A stretch of 39,684 nucleotides of DNA from Rhodobacter sp. SGA-6-6 (GTDB taxonomy: Bacteria; Pseudomonadota; Alphaproteobacteria; Rhodobacterales; Rhodobacteraceae). The position numbers and the translations under genes were made by a program. Under the pieces are notes generated by a model that saw only the letters and a list, made by a program, of their open reading frames with translations, searched no databases and had not been told where the DNA came from. This document shows, piece by piece, positions 215 through 26,693 of the stretch. The stretch is taken from the NCBI RefSeq assembly GCF_011043545.1, contig NZ_JAAKGP010000018.1:1-39684 (forward strand), given 5' to 3'. The stretch's first letter is position 1. Every line of letters begins with the position of its first letter.

Positions 215-1780
215 TTACCCTGCGGACAAGGAATAGTCGATCTTGCGTGCGAGCCAGCAGCCGATGGTCAGCCCGATCACCCGTCCCCCTTCGTCGCGGC
301 GGATGCGCAGGGTCCATTCCCCGGGCGGCGCGGAATCCATGGCGCGGCGGCTGGTGACCGACCAGAGATCTTCGGCCAGAGGATACATCCGCTCCATCGG
401 GCCAACGCCCAGCATCCCCTCGAACCCGATGGAGGCGGCCCCGTCCCGTGCCTCGATGACCAGCGACGCACCGATCTCGTCGGAACGATAGCGCCCGGCG
501 ATCGGCGCGGCGTCGGCCCGATCCAGGGGTTGCACGCTGCGGGCCCGCACGGTCAGGTTTTCCGTTGCGCGCTCCATCACCAGAAGGTCCGCGTCGCGGC
601 GGAGCGACAGGTCGGCGCCTCCGGCACGGCCCTCGGCGGTCTGGGGCAGAACCGTGGGCGAGACGGCGTAATCCAGGCGCACGCCGCCGGGCGCATCGCG
701 GGTGCGCAGGAAAAGCGCGTTCTCCTCGTCATACCAGAGGCCGTCCCAGCCCTGGCCCGGACAGCCCGCCGCCGGGGTCTCCAGCCCGAGCGCGGCCGTC
801 ATCAGCCCCTCGGCCGCCCGCATGGCGCTGGCCTCGTGGTTGAAGATCACCACGACCGACAGCCGCTCGGCTGCGGCATGCAGCCGGTAGGAGCAGAAGC
901 CCCGGACCCCGCCCCCATGGGCCGCGACCTCGACGCCCGCCGGCCGATAACGGCGCAGGCCATAGCCGTAGGAGGCCGGCTTTCCATCGGCGAACCGCAC
1001 CGGCACCAAGAGACGTTTGTAAAGCGCGGCCGGATCATCGCGGCCGGCATCGATCCATGCCTCCCACGCCAGCATGTCGTCGAGCGAGGCGGAGACGCCG
1101 GAATCGCCGAACCAGGTGATCGCACTCTGGGCAGGCAGAAAGCCCACCTCGTCATTGCCCTCATAGCCGATCACGCCATCGACCCTTTCCGCCATATCGG
1201 CGGCGAGGCGGGCCGTCGGCATGGCGGCGGGGCCGAAGATGCGCTCTTGCAGCAGCGCCCCGAAATCGCGTCCGGTCGCCCGCTGGATCAACTCGGCGAG
1301 CAGGCGGAAATTGCCGTTGCTGTAGGAAAAATGCGCCCCCGGCGCGAAATGGCCGCTGCGGGCCTGCCCCAGCAGAGCGCGGCCATCGGCCTCGGTGAAC
1401 CGCCCTTCCGGTGCGGCCCCCTGCAACACCGTCATCGCCCAGTAGTCGCGCAGGCCCGACTGGTTGTGACAAAGCTGCGCGACCGTCGGAAGCCGCCCGC
1501 GATAGTGCGGCAGCAGCTCGGGCAACAGCGGATCCAGCGCCTCGGGCCGGTCGAACAGGTCGAGCAGCAGGGCGCAGGTCATGTGCTTGGAGATCGAGCA
1601 GATCGGCATCCGCCGCGCGGAGGTCATCGGCAGCCGTGCCGCCGCATCGGCATAGCCCCAGGCGCGCCGGGCGATGACTCTTCCCCGATGCACCACGCCC
1701 GCGACCCCGGCCGGGCCGCGGAACCGGTCGGGAAGCAGCGCCAGCGCGCGCTCCAGCGCGGCAAGATTGATCTCTGCCAC
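215..1780 (-). CDS. dap: D-aminopeptidase, serine hydrolase of the penicillin-binding/beta-lactamase fold
   Basis: The 521-residue protein has the length of the Ochrobactrum anthropi D-aminopeptidase (about 520). Its motifs fall at the same places: an SxxK motif with Ser62 and Lys65, a YSN motif with Tyr153, and an HGGG motif with His288. The N-terminal two thirds are the catalytic beta-lactamase-like domain and the rest forms the beta-barrel extensions of this family. The family removes N-terminal D-amino acids such as D-Ala from peptides and amides. No signal peptide is visible, so it should act in the cytoplasm. It is the last gene of an operon with a peptide ABC importer, a YkuD-fold protein and a diaminopimelate decarboxylase, which points to degradation of imported murein peptides. 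A general esterase or beta-lactamase-like role is the alternative, but the motif spacing favours D-aminopeptidase. Confidence 0.85.
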   Translation of the reverse strand: MAEINLAALERALALLPDRFRGPAGVAGVVHRGRVIARRAWGYADAAARLPMTSARRMPICSISKHMTCALLLDLFDRPEALDPLLPELLPHYRGRLPTVAQLCHNQSGLRDYWAMTVLQGAAPEGRFTEADGRALLGQARSGHFAPGAHFSYSNGNFRLLAELIQRATGRDFGALLQERIFGPAAMPTARLAADMAERVDGVIGYEGNDEVGFLPAQSAITWFGDSGVSASLDDMLAWEAWIDAGRDDPAALYKRLLVPVRFADGKPASYGYGLRRYRPAGVEVAAHGGGVRGFCSYRLHAAAERLSVVVIFNHEASAMRAAEGLMTAALGLETPAAGCPGQGWDGLWYDEENALFLRTRDAPGGVRLDYAVSPTVLPQTAEGRAGGADLSLRRDADLLVMERATENLTVRARSVQPLDRADAAPIAGRYRSDEIGASLVIEARDGAASIGFEGMLGVGPMERMYPLAEDLWSVTSRRAMDSAPPGEWTLRIRRDEGGRVIGLTIGCWLARKIDYSLSAG

Positions 1781-1804
1781 GGGCAGCCCCTCGTCGCTGG
1801 TTAT

Positions 1805-2320
1805 TCAGTCCCCGTCCCGAAAGCACAGCCGCGTGCCGGGCCCGGCCACGGCCAGGAACTCCAGCAGATCGGCGCGGATCAGCGCGGCGCATCCGGCGGT
1901 CGGCCCATAGCCGGCGCTGGCCACATGCAGAAAGACCGCGCTGCCTGCGCCCGGAACCACCGGATCGTCGTTCTGGCCCAGAACGACGACGATGTCGTAA
2001 AGGTCGTCCTTGCGCCACATCTCTTCATGGCTGGCCGCGAAGGGCAACTTCACCGGGCGGTTGTAGTCGGGATGGTCGGGCGCATCGCACCAGCCGTCAT
2101 CCTCGGCGATCACTTCGGTCGGAAACACCGAAACCGGCGCCGCGCCCAGCTTGTCGGCGCGGTAGAGCACGCGCCGGATCGGCCAGCAGCCGATGGGGCT
2201 GACGCCATCGCCCTCGATCCGTTTCACGGCGATGCCGCTGCGCCCCACCGCCGCGCGCCAGACCCTGTCGCCGTAGGCGGCCTGCCAGGCATCCCCCTGC
2301 CGGGTCACGATCAAGTCCAT
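1805..2320 (-). CDS. Small YkuD-fold L,D-transpeptidase-family protein without signal peptide
   Basis: This 171-residue protein carries the YkuD catalytic signature near its end: His132 followed by a glycine-rich turn and Cys144 in an AGCAAL context. It consists of essentially the YkuD domain alone. It starts with a soluble beta-strand and has neither signal peptide nor membrane segment, so it is predicted to be cytoplasmic. Periplasmic family members cross-link peptidoglycan. Short cytosolic members can act as L,D-carboxypeptidases, cutting between meso-diaminopimelate and D-Ala during murein recycling. The gene lies 24 bases upstream of the D-aminopeptidase gene and 9 bases downstream of the last ABC ATPase gene, so all are probably co-transcribed. 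The fold is clear. The carboxypeptidase role is inferred from location and neighbours. Confidence 0.75.
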   Translation of the reverse strand: MDLIVTRQGDAWQAAYGDRVWRAAVGRSGIAVKRIEGDGVSPIGCWPIRRVLYRADKLGAAPVSVFPTEVIAEDDGWCDAPDHPDYNRPVKLPFAASHEEMWRKDDLYDIVVVLGQNDDPVVPGAGSAVFLHVASAGYGPTAGCAALIRADLLEFLAVAGPGTRLCFRDGD

Positions 2321-2329
2321 CCTGTCCTC

Positions 2330-3349
2330 TCAATCCTCCAGCGGGAAGTGGCAGGCGACCGCGCGGCCGCCAAGGGTTTGCAATCCCGGGTCCTCGACGC
2401 GGCAGATGTCGCGCGCAAAGGGACAGCGGGTATGGAACCGGCACCCCTTGGGCAGGTTCATCGGGCTGGGAATCTCGCCCCGCATCATCGGGCGATCCTC
2501 GCCGCGCTTGCGCGGATCGGGGCGCGGCACCGCCGACATCAGCAGCATCGTGTAGGGGTGCAGGGGCCGGGCAAACAGCTCTTCGGTCGTGCCCACCTCG
2601 ACCAGACGGCCGAGGAACATCACGCCCACCCGGTCGGCGAACTGCCGCACGACGGCCAGATCATGGGTGATGAAGAAATAGGTCAGCTTCAGCTGGTCCT
2701 GAAGGTCGCTCAGCAGGTTCAGCACCTGCGCCTGAATGGACACATCCAGTGCCGAGACGGATTCGTCGCAAACCACGAAATCCGGCTTGTTGGCCAGCGC
2801 GCGTGCGATGCCGATCCTCTGCCGCTGCCCGCCCGAGAGCTGATGCGGATAGTTGCGCAGATACTGGCGGCGCAGGCCCACCATTTCGAGAAGCTCGGTG
2901 CAGCGGTCGCGGATTTCGGCGGGCGTGCCGTAGCCATGGCTGCGCAGCGGCTCGGCAAGGATTTCTCCGATCCGCATCCGGGGGTTCAGCGAGGCGAAGG
3001 GATCCTGGAACACGATCTGCAGGTTCTTGCGCAAGGCCCGCATCGGACCTTCGCCAAGGCCGGTCAGATCGGTGCCGCGATACCGGATCGTGCCCGAGGT
3101 CGGCTCTTGCAGGCGCAGCATGACGCGCCCCAGCGTGGTCTTGCCGCAGCCGGATTCGCCCACCAGCGCAAAGGTTTCGCGCGCGCGGATGTCGAGGGTC
3201 ACGCCATCGATGGCGCGCACCACGCGGGGCGGGCCTGCGAACATGCCGCCGCCGACGCGGTAGTGTTTGGTCAGATCGCGGGTCGACAGAACGATCCGGT
3301 CGTCCTGCGCGGCTGTCCCGGTTTCGGGCTGAAGGACGGAGCCAGTCAC
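2330..3349 (-). CDS. Peptide ABC transporter ATP-binding protein, DppF/OppF type
   Basis: About 339 residues, read from a GTG start at 3349 that overlaps the stop of the upstream ATPase gene (GTGA). The frame extends further upstream, but that part lies inside the upstream gene and is not protein-like. Seen in order: Walker A with GESGCGKTT, a Q-loop with [10 protein letters not shown], the ABC signature LSGGQRQR, Walker B with a CDES motif, and the switch His in ITHDL. The C-terminal oligopeptide-type extension carries a Cys-rich segment ([10 protein letters not shown]) of the kind that binds an Fe-S cluster in DppD/DppF proteins. It pairs with the upstream ATPase to power uptake through the two permeases. 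The substrate is inferred to be a peptide, possibly murein-derived. Confidence 0.9.
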
Positions 3350-4356
3350 CGCATCTCTCCTTCCGGCAGGGCCGCCCCGGCGGAATGCAGCCAGCAGCGC
3401 GCCGAATGGCCGACGCCGACGGGCAGCAGATCCGGCGGGCGCTGGCATTGCGGCATCGCATCGCTGCAGCGCGGGGCGAAACGGCAACCGGGCGGCAGTT
3501 TGGCAAGGTTCGGCACCATGCCGGGAATGCTCGGCATCCGACGCGCCGCCCGCGCCACGGTCGCACGCGGGATCGAGGCGAGAAGGCCGCGCGTATAGGG
3601 ATGCGAGGGCCGCTCGAACAGGTCGAACACATCGGCCTGCTCGACCATCTGGCCCGCATACATCACGTTCACCTCGTCGCACATCTCGGCGATGATCCCC
3701 AGATCGTGGGTGATCATGATGATCGAGGTGCCGACCCGGTCGCGCAGGTCGCGCATCAGGCGCAGGATCTGCGCCTGGGTCGTCACGTCGAGCGCGGTCG
3801 TCGGCTCGTCGGCGATCAGAAGCTTCGGCTCGCAGATCAGGCCCATGGCAATCATCGCGCGCTGACGCAGCCCGCCCGACAACTGGTGCGGATAGGCGTC
3901 GAGGCGGGTCTTGGGCTCGGGGATGCCCACCAAATCGAACATGTCCAGCACCCGCTTGCGGATCGCGCTGCGGCCAAGGCCCTGATGGATCGCCAAAGGT
4001 TCACCCACCTGTTCCCAGACCTTGCGGACGGGGTTCAGGCTGGTCATCGGCTCCTGGAATACCATGGCGATGTCGCGGCCCCTGATGCGGCGCATCGCGG
4101 CCGGTTCAAGCTTCGAGATGTCCCGACCGTCAAGCAGGATGGAACTTGCGCTAACATTGCCCTGCGGCCGGGGCACCAGCCCCATCAGCGACAGCGCCGT
4201 CATGCTTTTGCCGGAGCCGGATTCCCCGACCAGCCCGACGATCTTGCCGCGTCCCACATCGAAGGAAACATCGTCCAGCACCCGCACGTCGCCCCGGTCG
4301 CCCGAAAACTCGGTGCGCAGCCCCCTGACGGAAAGGATCGGATCGTCGGCGCCCAT
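3346..4356 (-). CDS. Peptide ABC transporter ATP-binding protein, DppD/OppD type
   Basis: 336 residues with Walker A GESGSGKS, a Q-loop FQEPMTSLNP, the signature LSGGLRQR, Walker B with an ADEPTTALD motif and the switch His in ITHDLG. The C-terminal region has the Cys-containing oligopeptide-transporter extension (CRFAPRCSDA). It starts 4 bases after the stop of the upstream permease gene, and its stop overlaps the GTG of the next ATPase, so translation is probably coupled. With its partner it forms the heterodimeric motor of a five-part Dpp/Opp importer at the inner membrane. Confidence 0.92.
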   Translation of the reverse strand: MGADDPILSVRGLRTEFSGDRGDVRVLDDVSFDVGRGKIVGLVGESGSGKSMTALSLMGLVPRPQGNVSASSILLDGRDISKLEPAAMRRIRGRDIAMVFQEPMTSLNPVRKVWEQVGEPLAIHQGLGRSAIRKRVLDMFDLVGIPEPKTRLDAYPHQLSGGLRQRAMIAMGLICEPKLLIADEPTTALDVTTQAQILRLMRDLRDRVGTSIIMITHDLGIIAEMCDEVNVMYAGQMVEQADVFDLFERPSHPYTRGLLASIPRATVARAARRMPSIPGMVPNLAKLPPGCRFAPRCSDAMPQCQRPPDLLPVGVGHSARCWLHSAGAALPEGEMR

Positions 4357-4360
4357 CGGA

Positions 4361-5254
4361 TCAATCCTTCATCGAGGGGTCGAGCGCATCGCGCAGCCCG
4401 TCGCCGATGAAGTTGAAGGCCATGACCGTCAACAGGATCGCGACGCCGGGCGCGATGGCGACCGCCGGAGCCTGGAACATGTATTCCTTGCCCTTGGCCA
4501 CCAGGAGGCCCCAGCTCGCCTCGGGCGGCTGCACGCCGACGCCAAGGAAGCTGAGGCTGGATTCCCACATGATCGCCTCGGGGATCGACAGCGAGAACAG
4601 CACGATCAGCGTCGGCACCACATTCGGGAAGATATGCGAGAACATGATCACCGCGCGCGAGGTGCCGTTGGCGCGGGCGGCCTCGATGAATTCCTTTTCG
4701 CGCAGGGCGAGGGTCTGCGACCGCACGACCCGCGCGACCGAGGCCCAGCCGACAAGGGCCAGCGCCAGGAAGATGTTCAGCAGGTTCGCCCCCAGCGTAT
4801 ACATCACCACCATGGCGAGCAGCAGCGAGGGGAAGGCGATCATCATGTCGGCCAGCCGCATGACGACGAAATCGGTCTTGCCGCCCATATAGCCGCTGAG
4901 AATGCCCAGGACCGTGCCGATCAGCAGCGACACGAGGCTGGGGACGATGCCCACCACCAGCGAGATCCGCGCGCCGTAAAGGATACGGGTCAGCACATCG
5001 CGGCCGAAGTTGTCGGTGCCCAGCCAATAGGTCGCCGACATCGGCAAAAGCTGTTCGTCCAGTTCGACGCGGTAAGGGTCATGCGGGCTGATCCAGGGCG
5101 CAAACACCGCGCCAAGAACCAGCAGCACCACGAAAGCAAGCCCGACCATCGCCATCCGGTTGCGGCGAAAGGCGCGCATCGTGTCGCGCAGGAAGCTGGC
5201 TTCCTCGATGGTTTCGGGTTCAAGGATCGCAGCGGGATCGGCGGAAAGGGTCAT
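4361..5254 (-). CDS. Peptide ABC transporter permease, DppC/OppC type
   Basis: 297 residues with a cytoplasmic N-terminus (FRRNRMAMVGL), a first membrane helix, then a periplasmic loop with the typical GTDNFGRDVLTR motif of DppC/OppC permeases. About five further helices follow, with an EAA-type loop (EAARANGTS) that contacts the ATPase. Its ATG lies one base after the stop of the DppB-type gene. It forms half of the membrane channel of the importer encoded by this operon. Confidence 0.92.
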   Translation of the reverse strand: MTLSADPAAILEPETIEEASFLRDTMRAFRRNRMAMVGLAFVVLLVLGAVFAPWISPHDPYRVELDEQLLPMSATYWLGTDNFGRDVLTRILYGARISLVVGIVPSLVSLLIGTVLGILSGYMGGKTDFVVMRLADMMIAFPSLLLAMVVMYTLGANLLNIFLALALVGWASVARVVRSQTLALREKEFIEAARANGTSRAVIMFSHIFPNVVPTLIVLFSLSIPEAIMWESSLSFLGVGVQPPEASWGLLVAKGKEYMFQAPAVAIAPGVAILLTVMAFNFIGDGLRDALDPSMKD

Positions 5255-5255
5255 C

Positions 5256-6191
5256 TTACGCGTCCTTCTTCATCTGCGAGCGGATGCGCGGATCGAGCAC
5301 CGAATAAAGGATGTCGGCCACGAGGTTGCCGAGGATCACCAGCACGGTCGCAAACAGCACCGCGCCCTGCAGAAGCGGCATGTCGCGCGAGGAAATCGCA
5401 TTGACGGTGATCCGGCCCACGCCGGGGATCGAGAAGATCGCCTCGGTGATCACCGCGCCGGACAGAAGGCCCGACACCTGGATCGCCATGATCGTCACCA
5501 CCGGGATCAGCGCGTTCTTCAGCGCATGCCGGGTGATCACCCCGGTTTCCCGCAGGCCCTTGGCCCGGGCGGTGCGGATGTAGTCGTGCCGCATCACCTC
5601 CAGCAGGCTCGACCGCGTCAGCCGCGCGCTCACCCCGGCCGAGGACCAGCCCAGGACGATCGCCGGCAGGACCATGTATTCCCAGCCGTAGAAACCCGAC
5701 ACCGGCAGCAGTTTCAGCTGCATGGCAAAGACGTATTGCAGCAGCAGCGCCGACCAGAATACCGGCATCGACACGCCGAGCAGCGAAAAGCCCATGAAGA
5801 ACCGGTCGAGCAGGCTGTCGCGCCGCACCGCCGACAGGATGCCGGCCGGAATGCCGATCACCCAGGACACCAGCGCCGCACAGACCGCCAGCATCAGCGT
5901 ATTGGGGAATGCCTTCAGCAGCAGGTCGGTCACCGGCCGGTTCAGCTTGATCGAATTGCCCAGATCCCCCTGCAGGGCATTCCAGAGGAAGCTGAGATAC
6001 CGCACGACCAGCGGGTCGTCGAGATGCATCTGCGCCCGCACCCGCTCGATCACTTCGGGGCTGGCATGTTCCTTCATCATCAGCGCGACCGGGTCGCCCG
6101 GAACCACGTTCAGCATGATGAACAGGATCAGCGTGATCCCGATCAGCACCGGAATCGACACAAGAATGCGCCGAAGCGCGAACATCAGCAT
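5256..6191 (-). CDS. Peptide ABC transporter permease, DppB/OppB type
   Basis: About 311 residues. The start chosen is the ATG at 6191, giving MLMFALRR followed directly by the first membrane helix as usual for DppB. An ATG 30 bases upstream is possible but would add a short charged tail unusual for the family. Family features are the PGDPV segment after the first helix, six predicted membrane helices and an EAA-type loop (RTARAKGL). The gene follows the binding-protein gene after a 126-base spacer with a stem-loop, and it abuts the DppC-type gene. Role: the second channel subunit of the peptide importer. Confidence 0.9.
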   Translation of the reverse strand: MLMFALRRILVSIPVLIGITLILFIMLNVVPGDPVALMMKEHASPEVIERVRAQMHLDDPLVVRYLSFLWNALQGDLGNSIKLNRPVTDLLLKAFPNTLMLAVCAALVSWVIGIPAGILSAVRRDSLLDRFFMGFSLLGVSMPVFWSALLLQYVFAMQLKLLPVSGFYGWEYMVLPAIVLGWSSAGVSARLTRSSLLEVMRHDYIRTARAKGLRETGVITRHALKNALIPVVTIMAIQVSGLLSGAVITEAIFSIPGVGRITVNAISSRDMPLLQGAVLFATVLVILGNLVADILYSVLDPRIRSQMKKDA

Positions 6192-6279
6192 CGGCAGACG
6201 GTCTTTCTGCTGCGCCCGCAAAAGGTGCGGGGAAAGGCGTGGCGGAAGGCGCCCGTTGCGGCCGGGCGGCGGAACCGGG

Positions 6280-6306
6280 CCGGGGCGAACCTTGCGTCCG
6301 CCCCGG
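6280..6306 (-). promoter_or_regulatory. Intercistronic stem-loop after the binding-protein gene
   Basis: CCGGGGCG (6280-6287) and CGCCCCGG (6299-6306) form a perfect 8-bp stem with an 11-base loop, 11 bases past the stop of the binding-protein gene on the transcribed strand. There is no T-run. Hairpins here in ABC importer operons commonly stabilise the binding-protein mRNA or attenuate the distal genes, so the binding protein is made in excess. That function is inferred. Confidence 0.45.
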
Positions 6307-6317
6307 ACCCGAAGGTC

Positions 6318-7907
6318 TTATTCGACCTCGACGTTGAAGTAGTTCATGTCGCTCCAGCCGTTCCACGGAACGACGAAGTTCTTCACCCGCGGCTGCACGA
6401 CATAGCTGTGATCCAGGCTGAACAGCGGAACCCATGCCGCATCCTCGCCGACGATGCGGGCCGTCAGATCCTGATAGAGCTTGCACCGCTCTTCCTGGTC
6501 CACCATCCCGCGCGCCTTTTCGATGCCGGCAAAGACCTCGGGATCGTCGTTGTTGTAGCCGCGCGTCTTGGAGCCGGATTCCGAGAAGAACGTGTAGAAA
6601 AAGTTGTCGGGATCGTTGAAGTCGGCCGACCAGACCTGGGTATAGGCTTCGGCCTCGCCGGCCTTGCGGGCATCGAGGAAGGCGGCCTCGTCGGTGGTGA
6701 CGATATTGGCCTTGAACCCGGCCTCGGCCACTTGCGCCTGGATGATCTGGTTCATGTCGGACCATTTCGTCGACCAGCTCGACACCTGTTGCAGGTTGAT
6801 CTCGACGCCGTCCGGATAGCCGGCCTCGGCCAGCAGTTCCCTGGCCTTCGCGGGGTTGTATTCGATCGGCTCCGCCGGAGCATAGCAGGTCAGGCCGCGC
6901 GGGATCACCCCGTCCTCCAGCTTGCCCTTGCCGTAGAAGTTCTTGTCCAGAATGGTCTGACGGTCGATGGCGATCTGGAAAGCCTTGCGCACACGCACGT
7001 CGTCGAACGGCTTTTTCAGCTGGTTGATGTTGTAATAATAGATCCCCACGCGCGGGCCGGACCGAATCTGGTCCTTCCACTGGTCGCTGCCGTAGAAATA
7101 GGGCGTCTGGGTCGGGGCGTAGTCGAGGTCGAGGACGTCTATCTCGTCGGATTCGAACAGCATCCGCAGGGTTTCGGAATCCGACACCACGCGCACCAGC
7201 AGCCGGTCAAGCTTCGGGCGGCCGCGCCAGTAATCCTCGTTGGCCTCCAGCATCTGGCTGTCGTTCAGCGTGTAGTCGCGCAGGATGAAGGGGCCGGTGC
7301 CGTTGGTGGTCTCGGGCGTCAGGCCGAACTGGTCGCCCGCCGCCTCGGTGAAAGCACGGTTGTAAATCGAGGCGCCCGGGGCCGCCAACAGCGCCAGAAA
7401 GGCCGCATAGGGCTGGGCCAGCGTGATCTGGACGGTGTGGTCATCCAGCGCCTTCAGACCCGACACGCTGTCTGCCGTGCCATCGAGGCGATCCTCGGCA
7501 CCGGCGATGAATGTCAGGATGTCGGTGTTCAGCGCCTTGGTGGCCGGGTTCAGCATCCGGTCGAAGGTGTAGACCACGTCGTCGGCCGTCAGCACCGCAC
7601 CGTCGTGGAACTTCACGCCCTGACGCAGGTGGAAGGTATAGGTCAGCCCGTCCTCGGACACGTCCCACGTTTCCGCCAGCCCCGGAACCAGGGCGGATTC
7701 ACCGGGACCCGTCGTCTCGGATTCGACCAGCCGGTCGAAGATGTTCAGCGGCAGGGTATAGGCATCCGTCGTCATCTGGCCGTCGGCCGTTTTCGGATCC
7801 TCGCTGTAGGACACGCGCAGCATGTTCTCGGCCAGCGCCGGGGACATCAGCATCAGGCTGGCAAGGCCGGAGGCCAGCAGCAGTTTCACCGTGGTCTTGC
7901 TTGTCAT
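6318..7907 (-). CDS. Periplasmic peptide-binding protein of the Dpp/Opp family (SBP family 5)
   Basis: 529 residues from the ATG at 7907, preceded by a GAGG ribosome binding site. The longer open frame upstream lacks a signal peptide at its start. Residues 1-26 form a typical Sec signal peptide, with Lys near the N-terminus, a hydrophobic core and an AxA-type cleavage site ending at Ala26. The mature part matches cluster C solute-binding proteins, including the GLTYTFHLRQGVKFHDG segment and a two-lobed architecture near the usual length. It should capture peptides in the periplasm and deliver them to the permeases encoded downstream. The ligand cannot be read from sequence. The neighbours suggest peptides with D-amino acids and meso-diaminopimelate. 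Confidence 0.92.
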   Translation of the reverse strand: MTSKTTVKLLLASGLASLMLMSPALAENMLRVSYSEDPKTADGQMTTDAYTLPLNIFDRLVESETTGPGESALVPGLAETWDVSEDGLTYTFHLRQGVKFHDGAVLTADDVVYTFDRMLNPATKALNTDILTFIAGAEDRLDGTADSVSGLKALDDHTVQITLAQPYAAFLALLAAPGASIYNRAFTEAAGDQFGLTPETTNGTGPFILRDYTLNDSQMLEANEDYWRGRPKLDRLLVRVVSDSETLRMLFESDEIDVLDLDYAPTQTPYFYGSDQWKDQIRSGPRVGIYYYNINQLKKPFDDVRVRKAFQIAIDRQTILDKNFYGKGKLEDGVIPRGLTCYAPAEPIEYNPAKARELLAEAGYPDGVEINLQQVSSWSTKWSDMNQIIQAQVAEAGFKANIVTTDEAAFLDARKAGEAEAYTQVWSADFNDPDNFFYTFFSESGSKTRGYNNDDPEVFAGIEKARGMVDQEERCKLYQDLTARIVGEDAAWVPLFSLDHSYVVQPRVKNFVVPWNGWSDMNYFNVEVE

Positions 7908-8002
7908 TTCCGTTCCTCGCTGTCGGTTTGCCGCTGTCGCGGCATCAGGCGACTTCATTGAAAAGAGCGGAGCCTGTCGCACGGCTGCGCCCCCGCGCGC
8001 AC

Positions 8003-9313
8003 TCACCCGGCCCGTTGCCACGGACCGCCCTGTTCCAGCTTCAGCAGATCGCGGATGCCCGCCCGGTGGCGGATGATCCTGAACTGCCCCTCCTCGATCA
8101 GCACCTCGGGGATCAGGTCCCGCGAGTTGTAGGTCGATGACATCGCGGCCCCGTATGCCCCGGCGTCGCCGAAGGCCAGCAGGTCGCCGCGGATGATCTG
8201 GCCGAGGTCGTCATAGACCCCGAAATCATCGGAGCTCTCGCAGATTGGGCCGACGAGGCGGCCGGGGCGCGAGCCTGTCCCCAACCGCGGCGGATGCAAC
8301 GTGCGGATGGGATGGCGCGCGTCGTAAAGCGCGGGCCGCATCAGATCGTTCATCGCGGCATCGACGACCACGACATCGGCATCTTCCCCCGGCTTGCAAT
8401 ACAGGACCTCGGTCACCATCACCCCGGCACGGGCGCAAAGCCAGCGCCCCGGCTCGACATTCAGCGCCAGATCGAGGCCGCCGACAGTTTGGGCAATGAT
8501 CGCGGCATATCCGGCCAGGTCGGGGCCTGCCCCGCCATCGGCCCCGATGCCGAGCCCGCCGCCCAGATCCAGACGGTCGACCCGCAGACCTGCGGCCCGA
8601 AGGCGGCGCACCAGGTCGGCCAGCACGCTCCACGCCTGCCGGAAAGGTTCCAGATCGAGGATCTGCGAGCCGATATGCACGGCCAGCCCGACCATCCGCA
8701 GCTCCGGCGGGGCGTCGGCATAAAGCGCCGGGATCTGGTCGGACGGGATGCCGAACTTGCTGTCCTTGCGGCCGGTGGTGATCTTGGCATGAGTATGCGC
8801 ATCAACATCGGGATTGACGCGCAGGGCCACGGGGGCCTGCACGCCCAGTTCCCGCGCGACCTCCGCCACCATCTCCAGTTCGGCCGGGCTTTCGACGTTG
8901 ATCTGGTGGGCCCCCACCTCCAGCGCGGCCCGAATCTCGGCCCTGGTCTTGCCGACCCCGGAGAAGATGATCCGTCCGGCGGGGCAACCGGCAGCCAGCG
9001 CGCGCCGCATCTCTCCGCCCGAAACGATGTCCATTCCGCATCCCAGCCGCGCCAGTTCGGCCAGCACATGGATGTTGCTGCACGCCTTGACCGCAAAGCA
9101 GACCGCCACCCCCAGCGGCCCGACCGCCGCCGTAAGCGCGGCGTGCCGCGCCCGCAGGGCAGGCGCAGAATAGGCGTAGAACGGCGTTCCGACCGCCGAG
9201 GCGATGCCCTCCAGCGGCACCCCATGGGCACAGAGCTTGCCGCCCTCACGGTCAAGCCAGCGCTCGGCATCCTCATGGATTCGGGGGCGCGCGAGCGATT
9301 TGGCGGCGGTCAT
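8003..9313 (-). CDS. lysA: Diaminopimelate decarboxylase
   Basis: 436 residues of the alanine-racemase-fold PLP decarboxylase family. Seen: the PLP lysine in FAVKACS (Lys76), the glycine-rich PLP-phosphate loop LGGGLGIG, HIGSQI, an EPGR motif, the CESSDDFG motif that supplies the acidic and cysteine residues of the active site, and a C-terminal AYGAAMSSTYN motif. The reaction is meso-2,6-diaminopimelate to L-lysine plus CO2. The gene is first in an operon for peptide import and D-peptide hydrolysis, rather than in a lysine biosynthetic context. It is therefore probably a catabolic or salvage copy. A divergent LysR gene starts 120 bases away and likely controls it. Confidence 0.9.
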   Translation of the reverse strand: MTAAKSLARPRIHEDAERWLDREGGKLCAHGVPLEGIASAVGTPFYAYSAPALRARHAALTAAVGPLGVAVCFAVKACSNIHVLAELARLGCGMDIVSGGEMRRALAAGCPAGRIIFSGVGKTRAEIRAALEVGAHQINVESPAELEMVAEVARELGVQAPVALRVNPDVDAHTHAKITTGRKDSKFGIPSDQIPALYADAPPELRMVGLAVHIGSQILDLEPFRQAWSVLADLVRRLRAAGLRVDRLDLGGGLGIGADGGAGPDLAGYAAIIAQTVGGLDLALNVEPGRWLCARAGVMVTEVLYCKPGEDADVVVVDAAMNDLMRPALYDARHPIRTLHPPRLGTGSRPGRLVGPICESSDDFGVYDDLGQIIRGDLLAFGDAGAYGAAMSSTYNSRDLIPEVLIEEGQFRIIRHRAGIRDLLKLEQGGPWQRAG

Positions 9314-9433
9314 GACAACCTCAGGCTAACGGTGGCTGCCCCGACTATCCCGAAAGCCGACATTCACATGAAATACTTCATGGGCGTCTTTCATTCATTT
9401 CTGATATATCTCCCCGCATCGGGAGGTCCGGAC
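9314..9433. promoter_or_regulatory. Divergent promoter region with palindromic operator
   Basis: This 120-bp gap separates lysA (minus) from the LysR gene (plus). CATGAA (9367-9372) and TTCATG (9377-9382) form a perfect 6-bp dyad around ATAC, a plausible LysR-type operator. On the minus strand TTCATG followed after 17 bases by GATAGT is a weak sigma-70-like pair for lysA, so the dyad would overlap its -35. An AT-rich GATATAT lies upstream of the LysR gene, and its ribosome binding site GGGAGG is at 9421-9426. Promoter assignments are inferred. Confidence 0.5.
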
Positions 9434-10354
9434 ATGAAGCTGAACCAGCGCCAGATCGACGTGTTCAATGCGGTCATGGTGAACAAGAGCATCACCGCCG
9501 CCGCCGCCAAGCTCGGGAGTTCCCAGCCCACCCTCAGCCGCGAGATACGGGAGATCGAGAATCGGCTGGGCTTCGATCTTTTCCTGCGCTTCGGCAAGCG
9601 GCTGACACCCACCGAACAGGCGATTCTGCTGCATGAGGTGGTGCTGCGCTCTTTCGTCGGACTCGACGAGATCGGCCGCGCGGCCTCGGCGATCCGCACC
9701 CATAATGCCGCGAATTTCAGAATCGCGAGCATTCCCGCCTATGCGGAATCGGTCATCCCGCGGGTCATCCAGCGTTTTCTGAAAGGCCGGCACGCACTGC
9801 ATTTCTCGATCCATTCGCATGAGGAACCCTCGCTGCGGCACGAGATGACGACGCAGGTGTTCGACCTCGTTCTGGCCGAGAACCTGTTTGAACGCGACAG
9901 CGCCACCGGCACGACGGTATGCGCGGGCGATATGGTCTGCGTTCTGCCCCAGGGCCATCCGCTCGCCTCGCGCGCCGAACTGGCCCCTGCCGACTTCGCC
10001 GGCCAGCCCTTCATCTACTTCAGCCAGAACGACCCCTATCGCCACAAGCTCGATGTCGTGTTCCACGAGGCGGCGGTGGCGCGAGACTATGCCGCCGAGA
10101 CCACGACGGCAGCCAGCGTCTGCGCCATGGTCGCGGCAGGCGTCGGCATCTCGGTGATAAACCCGCTGACGGCGGCCAGCCACACCGGCGGGCCGGTGGT
10201 CTTTCGGCGCCTGTCCGTGCCGGTGCCGTATGAATTGTCCCTGTGGCACCCGGCGCGCAGCAACCGTCTCGCACAGATCAAACGCTTCATCACCTTCCTT
10301 GAGGAAGAGGCGGCCGGAATGGCGGACGAACTCGACCAGCACCTGCGCCCCTGA
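9434..10354 (+). CDS. LysR-family transcriptional regulator
   Basis: 306 residues from the ATG at 9434, eight bases after a GGGAGG ribosome binding site. The frame is open far upstream, but that part is antisense to lysA. The N-terminal 60 residues are a LysR winged helix-turn-helix (SITAAAAKLGSSQPTLSREI). The rest is a two-subdomain effector-binding region with PQGHPLA and AAGVGISVINP segments typical of the family. It is transcribed divergently from the lysA/peptide-transport operon, the usual arrangement for a LysR activator and its target. The inducer could be diaminopimelate, lysine or a D-amino-acid peptide. That is an inference from the target genes. Confidence 0.9.
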   Translation: MKLNQRQIDVFNAVMVNKSITAAAAKLGSSQPTLSREIREIENRLGFDLFLRFGKRLTPTEQAILLHEVVLRSFVGLDEIGRAASAIRTHNAANFRIASIPAYAESVIPRVIQRFLKGRHALHFSIHSHEEPSLRHEMTTQVFDLVLAENLFERDSATGTTVCAGDMVCVLPQGHPLASRAELAPADFAGQPFIYFSQNDPYRHKLDVVFHEAAVARDYAAETTTAASVCAMVAAGVGISVINPLTAASHTGGPVVFRRLSVPVPYELSLWHPARSNRLAQIKRFITFLEEEAAGMADELDQHLRP

Positions 10355-10827: not shown

Positions 10828-11130
10828 CTATCCTCCCTCCTGCCGCGGAGCGCCTTCGGCTTTGGTTTCGATGTCGGACATCTGCGGCAGCAGTCGATAA
10901 AGGTTCCGCTCGCTGATGCCGAGGATACGAGCCATCTCCCGCCGGTTGCCCCGCGTTTGGTCGAGCAGGTAGCGCAGATAGGCCGCGCGCAGGTGGTCGA
11001 GACTGGGTGGGGTCTCGAAGCGCAGCACGACCTCGCCGCTGCGCGACTTTCCGCATTTGACGCCCCCCGTTTTCGGACCGGCAGCCGGGTCGTTCCGGCC
11101 GCCTCCGACAGAGGGATTTCTATCTTTTCG
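10828..11130 (-). pseudogene. C-terminal Fis-type HTH fragment of a response regulator
   Basis: The frame is open on the minus strand from 11130 to a stop at 10828. Only the last 66 codons, from a GTG at 11028, look like protein. They contain a Fis/NtrC-type helix-turn-helix (YLRYLLDQTRGNRREMARIL followed by GISERNLYRLL), as found at the end of sigma-54-dependent or PrrA-like regulators. The preceding codons (about 34) are low-complexity and have no receiver or AAA+ sequence, so the gene is beheaded. A small independent Fis-like protein from the GTG is possible but less likely, given the other remnants nearby. Confidence 0.45.
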
Positions 11131-11133
11131 TCA

Positions 11134-11579
11134 TCAATTCAATTGTTTAAGTCTGGCTCCAAAAGGGCCGGGCCTGCCAAACTGGCAGGCGGCAAGGAGG
11201 TGGCACGGAAAGATCCAGAAAAGCCGGGCCTGCGAGACCAGCGGACAGGCCATCTCGATGGCGGTAGCCGCGATCATGCGGTCGAATGGATCCGGATGAT
11301 GCCATTCCATCGACCCGGACAGCATCGCCATCCGCGCGGTATATGGGGCGATGCGGAATCCCAGGGTCGAGCACAGGCTGTCGAGGCTGCCCGCATGGGG
11401 CAGCATCTCGTCCCATTTACCCTTCCGCGGCTTGATCGTGATCTCATGGAGGGCGCAGGGCGGGACGTGGATCGTCGTGCCGCTCTCCAGCAGGCTTCGC
11501 ACCCCGGCAGGAACGAGGGCGCGACCGGCGACCAGGCCAGCACATGCGTGTCGACGACGGCATGGCTCAAGCATCCCAC
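11134..11579 (-). pseudogene. Frameshifted PIN-domain toxin (VapC-like)
   Basis: One frame starts at 11579 (GTG, or TTG at 11570) and gives the PIN start AVVDTHVLAW with the first catalytic Asp. The homology then jumps to another minus-strand frame at about 11510-11530, which continues with HVPPCALHEITIK (second acidic residue) and HHPDPFDRMIAATAIEM (third acidic cluster). The C-terminus after SQARLF is not PIN-like and lacks the last conserved Asp. A frameshift plus a degraded end indicate an inactive toxin. It overlaps the antitoxin stop (TTGA), as in active pairs. Confidence 0.6.
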
Positions 11580-11746
11580 TCCGCGAGGTCTTCCGCGCTC
11601 ATGGGTTCGAGGAAGTCCGGAACCGAGCCCGGACTCACGACGCCCTTCAGAATGCCCAGGCGCACGCCTGTCCGGGCGACGGGCACAAGCCGCGCGGCGG
11701 GCTGCGGGAGAAAATTCGATGGCTTCCCCCCGGCTTCAGTCTGGTG
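11567..11746 (-). pseudogene. Truncated Phd/YefM-like antitoxin
   Basis: A 59-codon minus-strand frame without a plausible start ends in sequence typical of Phd-type antitoxin C-termini: PAARLVPVAR, then LGILKGVV, then an acidic tail EPMSAEDLAEWDA. The N-terminal DNA-binding half is missing because the frame is closed by a stop at 11747. It sits directly upstream of the frameshifted PIN toxin, so the two are a dead toxin-antitoxin operon cut off on the side where the metal ATPase gene begins. Confidence 0.5.
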
Positions 11747-11814
11747 TCAGGATGATGCGCTATCCGCCTTCCCAGCCACTGCCGTTCGGCACAGCCAGGA
11801 CCGAAACCTTGACC

Positions 11815-13701
11815 ATGACCCTTTCGCCCGACCGTGAGGTAGTGTTGACCGCGTTGACGCTGGCCGGGCTGGCGCTGGCCGCAGCTGCGGCCTTCATGGC
11901 GCCCGGCCCCTGGGGGCCTGCCGGCCTGATGCTGGTCTATCTGGCCGGCGGCCTGCCCGCCGCCGGGCGCGCGCTGGCCGCGCTCTGGCGCGATCATGTG
12001 CTGGACATCGACCTGTTGATGGTGATCGCCGCCCTGGCCGCCGCGGGGGTGGGCGCGGCGCTGGAAGGGGCGGTGCTGCTGACGCTGTTCAGCCTCTCGA
12101 CCACGCTGGAACACCGCGCCATGACCCGCGCCCGCCGCGCGGTCGAGGCGCTGATGGCGCTGCGCCCCGATACCGCGCTGCGACAGGCGCCCGACGGCTC
12201 GGTCGCCGAGGTTGCGGCCGCCGATCTGCGCCCCGGCGACATCGTGGTGCTGCGGCCAGGCGCGCGGGTGCCGGCGGATGGCACGCTGCTGGACGGCGAC
12301 GGCGCGCTGGACGAAGCGACGATCACCGGCGAATCGATGCCGGTCCACAAGCACCCCGGCGCCAAGGTGTTCGAGGCCACGGTGAACCTGAACGCCGTGC
12401 TGCGCGTCACCGTCTCGCGCCCCGTGGCCGACAGCACGGTTGCGCGCATGATCGCGCTGGTGACCGAGGCGCAGGCCGCCCGCGCCCCGTCCGAGCGGTT
12501 CAGCGAATGGTTCGGCCAGCGCTATACCGTGGCCGTGCTGGCCGGCGCGGTGCTGGCCTTCGGCCTGTTCCTCTGGCTCGGCTGGGGGCGGGAGGAGGCG
12601 CTTTACCGTGCGGCGGTGCTGCTGGTCGCGGCCAGCCCCTGCGCCGTGGTGATCTCGGTCCCCGCCGCGATCCTGTCGGCGCTGGCGGCGGCGGCGCGGG
12701 GCGGCGTGCTGTTCAAGGGCGGCGCGGCACTGGAGACGCTGGCAGAGGTCGAGACCTTCGCCTTCGACAAGACCGGCACCCTGACCACGGGCCGGGTGGA
12801 GGTGACGGGCATCGCGGCGCTGATCCCGGAAGACGGGTTCATGGCCCTGCTCGCCGGGCTGGAGGCGCAGGCCGAGCATCCGCTGGCCGAGGCGATCCGC
12901 CGCCATGCTGAGGCGCGCGGCATCGCCGCCGCGCCGGTCAAGGGTCTGGAGACGGCGCCGAGCGAGGGCATAAGGGGCCGCGACCGAGACAGCGCCGAGG
13001 TCTGGGCCGGCAATCCCCGCATGGCGGCCCGGATGGGCGCGCCGATCGACGCCCCGGCCCTGCGCGCACTGGCCGAAACCGCCGAGACGGTGATCTACCT
13101 CGGGCGCGGCGACCGGGTGCTGGGCGCGGTGACGGTGGCCGACCGGCCGCGCGAAACCTCGGCAACCGCACTGGCGGCGCTGCGCGCGGATGGCGTGGCG
13201 CGGCTGGTGATGATGACCGGCGACCGCCGCCCGGTGGGGCTGCGCATCGGTGCCGGGCTGGGCTTCGCGCCGCAAGACATCCACGCCGATCTGCTGCCCG
13301 GGGACAAGATGGCGCTGGTGGGCGAGTTGGCGCAGGACGGCCGCGTCGCGTTCGTCGGCGACGGGGTGAACGACGCCGCGGCGCTGGCGCGGTCGGATGT
13401 CGGCATCGCCATGGGCGTCGCCGGCAGCGAGGTGGCCTTGCAGGCCGCCGATGTGGCGCTGATGTCCGACGACATGGAACGGCTGGCGGCCGCCCGCCGC
13501 CTGGCCCGCCGCACAAGGCGGGTGATCCGGCAGAACCTGGGCTTCGCGCTGGCGGCGATGGCGGTGCTGGTGGCGTCGAGCCTGTTTCTGTCGCTGCCCC
13601 TGCCGCTCGCCGTGCTGGGGCACGAGGGCGGCACGGTGCTGGTGGTGCTGAACGGCCTGCGCCTCCTCGCCGACCCGATCCGCCGCAACGCGAGGGGCTG
13701 A
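11815..13701 (+). CDS. Heavy-metal P1B-4-type ATPase (probable Co/Fe or Zn exporter)
   Basis: About 628 residues from the ATG at 11815. An in-frame ATG at 11755 is an alternative, and neither has a strong ribosome binding site. Seen in order: membrane helices without an N-terminal heavy-metal domain, actuator motif TGES (171-174), SPC in the ion-binding helix (274-276), phosphorylation motif DKTGT (318-322), hinge GDGVND, and HEGGT (603-607) in the last membrane pair. SPC together with HEGGT defines subgroup P1B-4 (CoaT/CtpD/PfeT-like), which exports Co2+, Fe2+ and sometimes Zn2+ or Ni2+, unlike the CPC-type Cu or Zn pumps. The gene stands alone among remnants of other genes and looks intact. 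Its metal cannot be settled from sequence. Confidence 0.88.
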   Translation: MTLSPDREVVLTALTLAGLALAAAAAFMAPGPWGPAGLMLVYLAGGLPAAGRALAALWRDHVLDIDLLMVIAALAAAGVGAALEGAVLLTLFSLSTTLEHRAMTRARRAVEALMALRPDTALRQAPDGSVAEVAAADLRPGDIVVLRPGARVPADGTLLDGDGALDEATITGESMPVHKHPGAKVFEATVNLNAVLRVTVSRPVADSTVARMIALVTEAQAARAPSERFSEWFGQRYTVAVLAGAVLAFGLFLWLGWGREEALYRAAVLLVAASPCAVVISVPAAILSALAAAARGGVLFKGGAALETLAEVETFAFDKTGTLTTGRVEVTGIAALIPEDGFMALLAGLEAQAEHPLAEAIRRHAEARGIAAAPVKGLETAPSEGIRGRDRDSAEVWAGNPRMAARMGAPIDAPALRALAETAETVIYLGRGDRVLGAVTVADRPRETSATALAALRADGVARLVMMTGDRRPVGLRIGAGLGFAPQDIHADLLPGDKMALVGELAQDGRVAFVGDGVNDAAALARSDVGIAMGVAGSEVALQAADVALMSDDMERLAAARRLARRTRRVIRQNLGFALAAMAVLVASSLFLSLPLPLAVLGHEGGTVLVVLNGLRLLADPIRRNARG

Positions 13702-13704: not shown

Positions 13705-14239
13705 GTCAACCGCGCGGCAAGAACATCGCGCGAACCCCTCGGCCTCGCCGGGATGGGCGAGGCCAACTCCAGCCGCCCCCGCGCCGCCCGCGCGATGCTG
13801 TCGGCGATGGCGAGGCCGAGGCCCGAACCGGGCGCCGAGGCCCCGGCGCGCTCGAACCGCCGGGTCAGCCGCGCCAGTTGATCGGGCGCAACCGCCGGGC
13901 CCCGGTTGGTCACCGCAAGCCGCCCGCCCGACCGCAGCGAGACCTCGGACCGGGGTATCGGGAATGCGCGACGGCGCGCGGTCCGGCAGGTCGGCCTTCA
14001 GCCACGCCGCCGCCCTCGCGCGAGAAATCGTCGAGCGTCATCGGCCGCAGCCGGGCGCGGGTCAGACACAGCACCCAAAGCCCGCCGAGCGGCAGCAGCG
14101 CAGCCACCGGCAAGGCCAGCGCCTGCAACGTATGCCACAGCGTTTCGCGCCGATGCGCCAGTGGTTCGGCCACCGCGAGGTCGCGCCGCAGGCTGGGCGG
14201 CCGGCTCATGCCCCTGCCCGGCCGAGGCGATAACTCGCG
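13705..14239 (-). pseudogene. Remnant of a QseC-like sensor histidine kinase
   Basis: On the minus strand, sequence near 14100-14200 encodes the second membrane region of a sensor kinase (AVEPLAHRRETLWHTLQ-type linker, then VAALLPLGGLWVL and an LRPM HAMP-like end). Near 13720-13960, in another frame, lies the end of a HATPase domain (SLRSGGRLAVTNRGPAVAP, then SGLGLAIADSIARAA). The phosphoacceptor His region and the N-box are absent, so internal deletions and frame changes have killed the gene. It converges on the metal ATPase gene and may once have been its regulator. That link is speculative. Confidence 0.55.
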
Positions 14240-14575
14240 GCAGGCTTCGGCATCGTAGGGAATGGGCACTTTGCCGGATCTGGTCGAGGGGATGACGGCT
14301 TCGGTTTTGGTCGCGGCCAGCCGGTCGCGCAGGCAGTTCGCGTCATGGCCCTTGTCGGCCAGCAGGCGGGCAGGCGCGGGACATCTGTCCAGGAGTGCGG
14401 GAGCTTCCGAGATGTCGGCATGGTTGCCGGGGCTGAGTGCAAAGGCGATTGCCCGCCCGCAACCCTCTGTCAGGGCGTGGATTTTGGTGATTGTCCCCCA
14501 CGCGAGCGCCTGATGGCCTGAATTTTCGCCCCCCTTTTCCGCCGTGTGCCGAACAGAGAGAACGCATATCATCAA
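14240..14575 (-). mobile_element. IS5-family transposase remnant
   Basis: A minus-strand frame encodes the middle of an IS5/IS427-type DDE transposase: TITKIHALTEG (for the usual TKIHAL), LSPGNHADISEA, LLADKGHDANCLRDRL with the catalytic Asp, and TEAVIPSTRSGKVPIPYD. The N-terminal third and the C-terminal DDE glutamate region are missing. At about 14240 the frame runs straight into sensor-kinase sequence, so the insertion interrupted that gene and then decayed. It lies 22 bases downstream of hupC. Confidence 0.65.
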
Positions 14576-15924: not shown

Positions 15925-17724
<1,800 letters not shown>

Positions 17725-17728
17725 GGTC

Positions 17729-18814
17729 TCAGCCCTCCGCTTTCTCTTGGGTCTTCTTCTGGGCGCGCTTCAGGGCGCTGATCGCGGCATGAACCGCCAC
17801 CGCGCCGCCGACCACCCCCGCCGCCGCCATGCCGACCTGATCGGCATTCGCCTCGATGCCGAACTGCTTGATGTTGGTCAGCCGGTCGTAGAAGCTGCCC
17901 TGATCCCAGAACCCGTCCTCGGAACAACCGATGCAGCCGTGACCCGACTGGATCGGGAAGCTGGTGCCCTCGTTCCAGCGCACGGTGGAACAGGCGTTGT
18001 AGGTGGTCGGCCCCTTGCAGCCCATCTTGTAGAGGCAATAGCCCTTGCGCGCGTTCTCGTCGTCCCAGTGTTCGACGAACTGGCCCGCGTCGAAATGCGG
18101 CCGGCGATAGCATTTGTCGTGGATGCGCTGGCCGTAGAACATCGCCGGCCGGCCCTGACGGTCAAGCTCGGGCAGGCGGTCGAAGGTCAGCATGTAGGTG
18201 ATGACGCCGGTCATCACCTCGGCGATCGGCGGGCAGCCCGGCACCTTGATGATCGGCTTGTCGGTGATGACCTTGTGCACGGGCGTGGCCCGCGTCGGGT
18301 TGGGTGCCGCGGCCTGCACGCAGCCGTAGGAGGCGCAGGCGCCCCAGCTGATCACCGCCTTGGCATGTTGGGCGGCATGTTTCAACTGTTCGACGAAGGG
18401 CTTGCCGCCGACGATGCAGAACATCCCGTCCTCGTTCAGCGGCGGGTTGCCCTCGACGGCGAGGATGTAGTTGCCCTTGTATTTCTGGATCGTTTCCTCC
18501 AGCGCCGCCTCGGCCGCATGGCCCGCCGCCGCCATCAGCGTGTGGCTGTAGTCGAGGCTGATCATCGACAGCACCACGTCCTTGGCCAGGGGATGCGCGC
18601 CCCGGATGAAACTCTCCGAACAGCAGGTGCATTCCAGTCCGTTGACCCAGATCACCGGGGTGCGGGGCTTGGTCTCCATCGCATGGGCAATCTTCGGCAC
18701 GAAGGCCGGCCCAAGGCCAAGGGCGCTGGCCGTCAGGGCGCAGTATTTCATGAAACTGCGCCGGGTGATCCCCTGCCTGCGCATCACCTCGTAGAAGGTT
18801 TCGATCTGGCTCAA
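17729..18814 (-). CDS. hupS: Uptake [NiFe]-hydrogenase small subunit (Tat precursor)
   Basis: 361 residues from a TTG start at 18814, chosen because a strong GGGGAGGG ribosome binding site sits 6 bases before it and the product begins like known HupS proteins ([15 protein letters not shown]). The Tat motif RRSFMK (Arg18-Arg19) and an AHA cleavage site near residue 45 are clear. Cysteines for three Fe-S clusters follow: ECTCCSESF and GACASYG near the N-terminus, and the CYRR, CLYKMGC and [11 protein letters not shown] groups. A hydrophobic segment near the C-terminus is the membrane anchor. The upstream gap is long enough for the operon's hydrogen-responsive promoter. Confidence 0.95.
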
Positions 18815-21250: not shown

Positions 21251-21271
21251 CTTGGTCCAAATACTCCGGGG

Positions 21272-21297: not shown

Positions 21298-21307
21298 GCG
21301 TTTGCCT

Positions 21308-26253: not shown

Positions 26254-26257
26254 CCCG

Positions 26258-26686: not shown

Positions 26687-26693
26687 GGTCCAG

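Follow-up and report, generated by a model that had tools for sequence, protein, structure and literature searches.

A putative diaminopimelate-responsive operon for the uptake and catabolism of murein peptides in Rhodobacter sp. SGA-6-6

Why would an alphaproteobacterium place a second copy of lysA, the gene for diaminopimelate decarboxylase, at the head of a peptide transporter and peptidase operon? This question is raised by contig NZ_JAAKGP010000018.1 of Rhodobacter sp. SGA-6-6, of which positions 1 to 39,684 of the forward strand were analysed (hereafter the window; its base 1 is base 1 of the contig). Here, lysR diverges from a series formed by lysA, a solute-binding protein (SBP) gene, oppBCDF, a YkuD-domain gene and a gene for a D-aminopeptidase homologue, the last lying nearest to the contig edge. 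An earlier note on this DNA had proposed uptake and catabolism of peptides centred on meso-diaminopimelate (mDAP), and our analysis supports that proposal through a LysR box shared with Escherichia coli, a LysA that scores above its family cut-off, a YkuD protein without a leader, and a sister operon found in related bacteria. We consider it likely that the locus is an mDAP-responsive operon for the uptake and catabolism of murein peptides. We see in it a predicted, new form of murein-peptide utilisation, functionally like dpp-ykf of Bacillus subtilis but made of other protein families and provided with an mDAP-LysR switch.

The claimed gene set (lysA, a five-part peptide importer, a YkuD gene, a D-aminopeptidase gene and a divergent lysR) was borne out by nine open reading frames (ORFs) with Pfam and NCBIfam matches, which are listed here together with the regulatory box:

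9434..10354, plus strand: LysR-type regulator (NF008239/PRK11013, E. coli LysR model).
9391..9407, minus strand: LysR box ATATCAGAAATGAATGA, following the pattern ATATCRNNNNTGNATRA and containing T-N11-A (pattern search).
8003..9313, minus strand: LysA, diaminopimelate decarboxylase paralogue (TIGR01048 and motifs).
6318..7907, minus strand: family-5 SBP, signal peptide by eye (PF00496, 344.6 bits).
5256..6191 (alternative TTG start at 6221), minus strand: OppB-type permease (PF00528 and PF19300).
4361..5254, minus strand: OppC-type permease (PF00528 and PF12911).
3346..4356, minus strand: OppD-type ATPase (PF00005 and PF08352).
2330..3349, minus strand: OppF-type ATPase, GTG start (PF00005 and PF08352).
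1805..2320, minus strand: leaderless YkuD-domain protein, proposed cytosolic L,D-carboxypeptidase (PF03734, 33.6 bits, cut-off 23.4).
215..1780, minus strand: S12-type D-aminopeptidase homologue carrying Arg275 (PRK13128, 655.9 bits; PDB 1ei5 match).

From the D-aminopeptidase gene up to oppB the intergenic gaps are 24, 9, -4, 4 and 1 bp; oppB and the SBP gene are 126 bp apart (96 bp if the TTG start is used), the SBP gene and lysA 95 bp. A single transcript running from lysA to the D-aminopeptidase gene is plausible, the oppB-SBP and SBP-lysA joints being the ones that we infer.

Is this arrangement peculiar to one strain? A profile search of genome contigs, with a query alignment of five D-aminopeptidases, gave 36 loci with related D-aminopeptidases, near relatives being left in, and the presence of each gene was scored by tblastn at an identity of at least 50%. 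The count of 36 draws on this one collection, several loci of which look like genomes that the other collection searched also holds (L099 and G334, L071 and G298, L079 and G534, L069 and G398, L078 and G316). Searches of this kind miss genomes that have the operon without the D-aminopeptidase, and some of the incomplete loci stop close to a contig edge (L069, L073, L074). All nine genes stood together in 15 of the 36 loci, which argues for a non-random gene order, and YkuD and the D-aminopeptidase occurred together in 24; a restriction to one strain, named beforehand as a finding that would refute the proposal, did not hold. We take five of the 15 nine-gene loci to belong to Rhodobacteraceae and ten to Rhizobiaceae or other Hyphomicrobiales. 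Among the remaining loci, L091 is without lysR-lysA. The distribution of the nine-gene unit is patchy. In a scan of 248 genomes of the family, the D-aminopeptidase (E 1e-40) was found in ten, with YkuD beside it in five of these; among 13 genomes of the genus, the D-aminopeptidase (E 1e-100) was present in eight, and two of the eight carried the cluster type (the own genome and G534, at 66%, which has all nine genes). In addition, copies of the cluster lie on replicons filed as plasmids in Rhizobium daejeonense, Rhizobium sp. ACO-34A, Ensifer canadensis, Ensifer adhaerens and Shinella.

This distribution bears on the possibility that the operon recycles the cell's own wall-turnover peptides, accessory to a route like YejBEF-YepA, rather than scavenging from outside. 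Own peptides would be chemically identical, and Agrobacterium tumefaciens is reported to import its own muropeptides through the ABC transporter YejBEF-YepA, YepA being said to be widespread in Rhodobacterales (PMC9790009). Against a recycling role stands the patchiness of the unit, the YkuD-D-aminopeptidase pair being present in 5 of 248 family genomes and the cluster-type D-aminopeptidase in 2 of 13 genus genomes, with several copies on plasmids. Furthermore, mDAP would be lost to lysine through LysA, and the window genome gave no Mpl match above cut-off (three weaker matches), so that imported stems are more likely to be degraded than re-ligated. We regard own-wall recycling as quite unlikely.

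Which signal would then turn on an operon for scavenged peptides? The window LysR scores 291.3 bits against NF008239/PRK11013, a narrow margin over the cut-off of 288 (the next best NCBIfam model reached 88 bits). Over 149 aligned residues it shares 40% identity with the N-terminal portion of E. coli LysR. The LysR proteins of both operons of R. daejeonense, this cluster (cluster 1) and the sister operon described below, also score above that cut-off, with 306.6 and 304.1 bits. We take this model to represent the E. coli lysA activator, the co-inducer of which is diaminopimelate (mDAP).

A pattern, ATATCRNNNNTGNATRA, was derived from the lysR-lysA spacers of cluster 1 themselves; in the first 19 spacers it was found 17 times exactly and twice with one mismatch. 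In total, the box was present in 21 of 22 spacers (18 exact, including ACO-34A, and three with one mismatch, including E. adhaerens), a set that includes near relatives (L081, L082, L114). The 4,291,385-base window genome has a single match, which lies in the lysR-lysA spacer, and the reversed-pattern control gave none. When the E. coli K-12 lysR-lysA spacer was searched, after the pattern had been fixed, it proved to contain a single copy, carrying one mismatch, in the same orientation to lysA as in the window and with gaps to lysA/lysR of 77/27 bp versus 77/26 bp in the window. As a control for the E. coli box, shuffled sequences were scanned: the 4 kb source gave a match in 6 of 200 shuffles, and the 121 bp spacer one as good in 47 of 5000. 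In alphaproteobacteria the distance from the box to lysR ranges from 21 to 99 bp. The window thus shares with the E. coli divergon the divergent lysR and lysA, the LysR model, the box with one mismatch, its strand and its spacing, and differs from it in that its lysA, the second in the genome, heads an operon of transporter and peptidase genes. These data suggest that mDAP-bound LysR is probably the switch of the operon, and that it would turn on lysA and the genes behind it through the conserved box.

LysA itself indicates what could become of the mDAP. It scores 414.9 bits against TIGR01048 (cut-off 297.9) and retains the motifs N-D-L, R-P, C-E-S-x-D and GAYG...YNSR relative to E. coli LysA; the other lysA of the genome, 50% identical, lies elsewhere (C1:316651). 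The enzyme would convert freed mDAP to lysine. A DokD-type D-ornithine/lysine decarboxylase was rejected on the score against NF052544 (162.6 bits, cut-off 700). That LysA matches the diaminopimelate decarboxylase model and misses DokD is also relevant to a different proposal, in which the operon imports and hydrolyses D-amino-acid peptides that do not come from murein, such as microbial D-peptides, and LysA serves lysine supply or another D-amino acid. Many D-Ala peptides and amides are substrates of the D-aminopeptidase family, and relatives of the window enzyme, including a second copy in the same genome, stand beside other peptide transporters with no window-type YkuD or LysA match. Yet the E. 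coli-type LysR box links control to lysA, and known YkuD domains are reported to act on mDAP-D-Ala bonds (PMC8649774, PMC9239154), and with the LysA scores this makes a non-murein diet unlikely in our view.

Where would murein peptides be trimmed? The YkuD protein has 171 residues, and its His132, Thr141, Gly143 and Cys144 are invariant in the 21 cluster copies aligned. Three in-frame codons lie between the preceding stop and the YkuD start, and eight in the case of the D-aminopeptidase, so that neither protein has a hidden signal peptide; both should be cytosolic unless exported by an unknown route. With its YkuD domain, catalytic Cys and His and missing signal peptide, the window protein carries the marks of the class of ElsL (LdtK) of Acinetobacter baumannii, a leaderless YkuD protein with catalytic Cys138 described as a cytosolic L,D-carboxypeptidase that releases D-Ala from tetrapeptides (PMC8649774, PMC9239154). 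The two are alike in size and in the catalytic cysteine (Cys138 versus Cys144 in the window), a likeness drawn from description only, and they differ in that ElsL serves wall recycling, with imported anhydro-muropeptides as substrates. By this comparison the window YkuD would cut the mDAP-D-Ala bond in the cytosol. YkuD proteins are usually secreted transpeptidases (PMC8649774), and the gene could also encode a wall-acting L,D-transpeptidase whose position in the operon is incidental; this we consider very improbable, given that a signal peptide is impossible upstream, that YkuD and the D-aminopeptidase are linked in 24 of the 36 loci, and that the sister operon encodes a fusion of a YkuD domain with an AstE/AspA domain. 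A periplasmic transpeptidase role was rejected on the lack of room upstream for a signal peptide; an LDTGo-type 1,3-transpeptidase was rejected too, LDTGo being exported (PMC10864386).

The product of the last gene had been named a D-aminopeptidase, and at the level of the family the name stands: the protein scores 655.9 bits against PRK13128 (cut-off 443), is a full-length homologue of the Ochrobactrum anthropi enzyme (PDB 1ei5, E=3.4e-139) with its catalytic residues, and keeps Ser62, Lys65, Tyr153, Asn155, His287 and Asp481, as do all 45 aligned rows. The name may be imprecise because none of the aligned YkuD-linked copies has the residue of the characterised enzyme, Asn in 1ei5, at position 275. 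Arg occupies this position in 28 of the 45 rows (the window, all 24 YkuD-linked loci, L088, L092 and L101), and the other 17 have K, G, S, A, Q, D or N. Since the residue varies within the family, Arg275 is a mark of specificity and not of the family, and on a quick tree, with column 275 requested to be left out of tree building, the Arg state required one change. In the known enzyme, Asp481 holds the free amino group of the substrate, and in a 2005 study N275R was reportedly among the changes that made the O. anthropi enzyme a D,D-carboxypeptidase. Asp479 and Asp481 have been discussed near the acyl intermediate (PMC9053604). With Asp481 and Arg275 in place, a short D-Ala-X peptide could be held by its amine and by the carboxylate beside the cut bond, and both D-Ala-D-Ala and D-Ala on the D-centre of mDAP could fit this pair. 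The homologue would thereby remove N-terminal D-Ala from D-Ala-X, X being the second D-Ala of D-Ala-D-Ala or the mDAP of a D-Ala-mDAP remnant of a 4-3 cross-link.

A variant within the same pathway makes the homologue a D,D-dipeptidase or D,D-carboxypeptidase, in which Arg275 binds the carboxylate of the D-Ala-D-X leaving group and the enzyme acts on D-Ala-D-Ala ends or on D-Ala-mDAP. The presence of Arg275 in 25 of 25 YkuD-linked copies, and its single origin on the tree, speak for this variant; the retention of Asp481 in every row, and L088, L092 and L101, which have Arg without a detected YkuD partner, speak against it, and we see it as a possibility that falls short of an even chance. Two further D-aminopeptidase genes were observed in other surroundings. 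The second D-aminopeptidase of the window genome (L051, C33:199855-201387; 51%) has Ala at position 275; an alpha/beta hydrolase gene and genes for a different peptide ABC transporter lie close by. On pAMI4 of Paracoccus aminophilus (L115, 13848-15413), a D-aminopeptidase (60% identical) has no YkuD or lysA annotated beside it, its neighbours being kynureninase and D-lactate dehydrogenase genes.

The binding protein gives an indication of what may be taken up. In DppA, Asp436 is the amine anchor and Arg383 the carboxylate anchor of the bound peptide (precursor numbering; PMC12136057). In all 20 cluster copies aligned, Asp436 is kept while Arg383 and three loop positions are missing, which makes an ordinary dipeptide a less likely ligand, and the score against the DppA model NF043070 (231 bits) is far below its cut-off of 1005. 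The protein would bind short peptides whose amino end is free and pass them to OppBCDF.

Further support for an mDAP-centred function is provided by a sister operon, with the order LysR2-serine hydrolase (PF13354)-SBP2-OppBCDF2-YkuD::AstE/AspA, the serine hydrolase having no signal peptide by eye. It follows cluster 1 in Gemmobacter aquaticus and lies about 20 kb from it on a plasmid of R. daejeonense; ACO-34A, E. canadensis and the family genome G334 also have it in full, with serine hydrolases 46 to 93% identical to that of R. daejeonense. The LysR box precedes the sister operon in five of five spacers (four exact, one with one mismatch), and all five genomes with the complete sister operon carry cluster 1. 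It is intact in R. daejeonense, ACO-34A and G334, whereas G. aquaticus lacks its transporter and E. canadensis has no D-aminopeptidase gene next to it. G. aquaticus is not an independent case, because it was met through cluster 1; the other four were met through searches with the fusion protein. Among 149 genomes of the family, 17 matched the fusion protein at E 1e-20, only the match of G334 extending over most of the protein (24-510), and in the window genome only the YkuD paralogue matched at that threshold, the AstE/AspA family PF24827 not having been searched itself. Homology of the AstE/AspA domain to MpaA was tried and rejected, a BLAST against E. coli MpaA having given nothing significant. 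For that reason the reaction of the fusion rests on analogy, by which it may cut the gamma-D-Glu-mDAP bond. In Rhizobium sp. ACO-34A (L126, 11106-19372), a further peptide ABC transporter adjoins the sister operon, with an annotated 6-aminopenicillanic acid acyltransferase gene.

A wider proposal can be put forward tentatively. The two operons may form an mDAP-sensing LysR regulon of Alphaproteobacteria that consumes wall peptides with a cytosolic YkuD L,D-carboxypeptidase, an S12 enzyme with Arg275 that opens the cross-link (or D-Ala-D-Ala), LysA, and a fusion protein that cuts on both sides of mDAP, the E. coli lysR-lysA switch, which has been read as biosynthetic, being then a relative of a catabolic switch. 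We think that this is conceivable, at somewhat less than even odds.

Does the operon of the window dismantle murein peptides completely, as had been claimed? This part was not borne out. Neither a gamma-D-Glu-mDAP peptidase family (Pfam) nor an L-Ala-D/L-Glu epimerase family was recognised among the nine proteins, to which the epimerase search was confined, and the window genome gave no match to Peptidase_M14 (PF00246, MpaA-type) or Peptidase_S66 (LdcA-type). Because the operon is without a recognised gamma-D-Glu-mDAP peptidase, the release of mDAP from L-Ala-gamma-D-Glu would require an enzyme from outside it or peptides already cut at that bond. The single NlpC/P60 match of the window genome is a protein with an SH3_16 domain and, by eye, no signal peptide, adjoining a leucyl-aminopeptidase-like ORF (also by eye), and it has an Asp 18 residues after the catalytic Cys. 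YkfC-like enzymes are marked by this Asp (Cys238, Asp256; PMC2954226), a further mark of theirs being a tyrosine in the SH3b domain. As a candidate YkfC-like enzyme, this protein could cut gamma-D-Glu-mDAP in trans, which would make a route from tripeptide to mDAP possible with an enzyme encoded outside the operon.

How does this proposal compare with described systems? The earlier note knew of none with exactly this content, and our literature searches, judged largely by title and with subscription papers mostly outside their range, found no account of the operon; a functional analogue, however, has been described. The dpp-ykf system of B. subtilis presumably includes the D-aminopeptidase DppA and the LD-carboxypeptidase YkfA, which we take to be a zinc enzyme and an S66 enzyme, the window having an S12 serine enzyme and YkuD instead. 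It is the closest functional analogue (DppA-E, YkfA-D; PMC2954226), and its combination of a peptide ABC importer with a D-aminopeptidase-type enzyme is also found in the window. Unlike dpp-ykf, the window operon adds LysR and LysA and is without epimerase and NlpC/P60 genes. In E. coli, murein-peptide recycling (MppA-Opp, LdcA, MpaA, YcjG) joins ABC import of mDAP peptides to cytosolic trimming, as we propose for the window, but the E. coli genes are scattered and the window genome has no S66, M14 (PF00246) or Mpl above cut-off. YejBEF-YepA of A. tumefaciens is likewise an alphaproteobacterial ABC transporter for wall fragments (PMC9790009); it differs in taking muropeptides, and the passages of that paper that deal with the locus name dadA and glnA beside yejABEF and mention no lysA, YkuD or D-aminopeptidase.

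Besides the missing gamma-D-Glu-mDAP peptidase, several observations weigh against an mDAP-responsive murein-peptide operon. As to control, a sigma-70-like promoter was looked for in 7900-9500 and not found; in Shinella sp. PSBB067 (L117, position 6054), the 22nd spacer case, the box is placed not between lysR and lysA but between lysA and the SBP gene; and the full 17-letter consensus was not significant on the E. coli spacer, where its best match (12 of 17) fell at another place, the box reached 11, and 12% of shuffles were as good. As to YkuD, the profile of the window protein matched no solved structure at E 10, and 159 of 289 class genomes have relatives of it, few of which were viewed in context. 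Moreover, A. tumefaciens and Caulobacter crescentus are reported to be without cytosolic LD-carboxypeptidase activity on muropeptides (PMC9790009, PMC13046382), and 2 of 14 A. tumefaciens YkuD proteins are described as having no signal peptide (PMC11527210); if these two belong to the family of the window YkuD, another function of the family may be possible.

The integrity of the unit is also variable. L080 has LysR-LysA-YkuD-D-aminopeptidase without the transporter, L076 and L102 have no transporter and L093 has pieces of OppF only, all three of the latter keeping YkuD and the D-aminopeptidase, and the cluster of E. canadensis is complete except for the adjacent D-aminopeptidase. A plasmid of Rhizobium jaguaris carries a YkuD protein that resembles the corresponding half of the fusion (47%), but within 20 kb there is neither a box nor a similarly related transporter of either operon. 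SBP2-like binding proteins (about 51%) are found on many Sinorhizobium meliloti plasmids. In the one such neighbourhood viewed, on plasmid p_1 of S. meliloti RCAM1750 (L142, 3161-13231; SBP2-like, 51%), no YkuD is annotated. The transporter there is accompanied by genes for LysR, an amidohydrolase, a P1 peptidase and a D-amino-acid transaminase, and may belong to another system for D-amino-acid peptides. Also against a strict tie of the fusion to its operon is E. canadensis pT173a (L119, 11959-13509), where a 43% relative of the fusion has a GntR regulator beside it and no transporter annotated.

Other features of the window lie beyond the operon. A P-type ATPase-like reading frame (10957-13701) adjoins an ORF that resembles a transposase fragment by eye (13910-14575). 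A NiFe hydrogenase region (15925-33277) follows, with the large subunit at 15925-17724, HypF at 19007-21250, HypD at 32126-33277 and two small-subunit genes, at 17729-18895 and 22717-23703. A serine recombinase with Resolvase and Recombinase domains (34476-35855) is followed by a dip in G+C to 0.607 at 36001-38000, near which lies a fatty acid desaturase gene; recombinase and dip may mark an insertion boundary.

For A. tumefaciens, the authors of the YejBEF-YepA study suggested that imported peptide is degraded for carbon or nitrogen, and orthologues of LD-carboxypeptidase and Mpl were noted as missing there (PMC9790009). The cluster described here provides specific genes together with a regulator, an operator and a probable inducer, and so opens the fate of imported wall peptide to experiment. 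Leaderless YkuD proteins are predicted from it to have one more use, and a well-studied enzyme to have changed its specificity at one residue.

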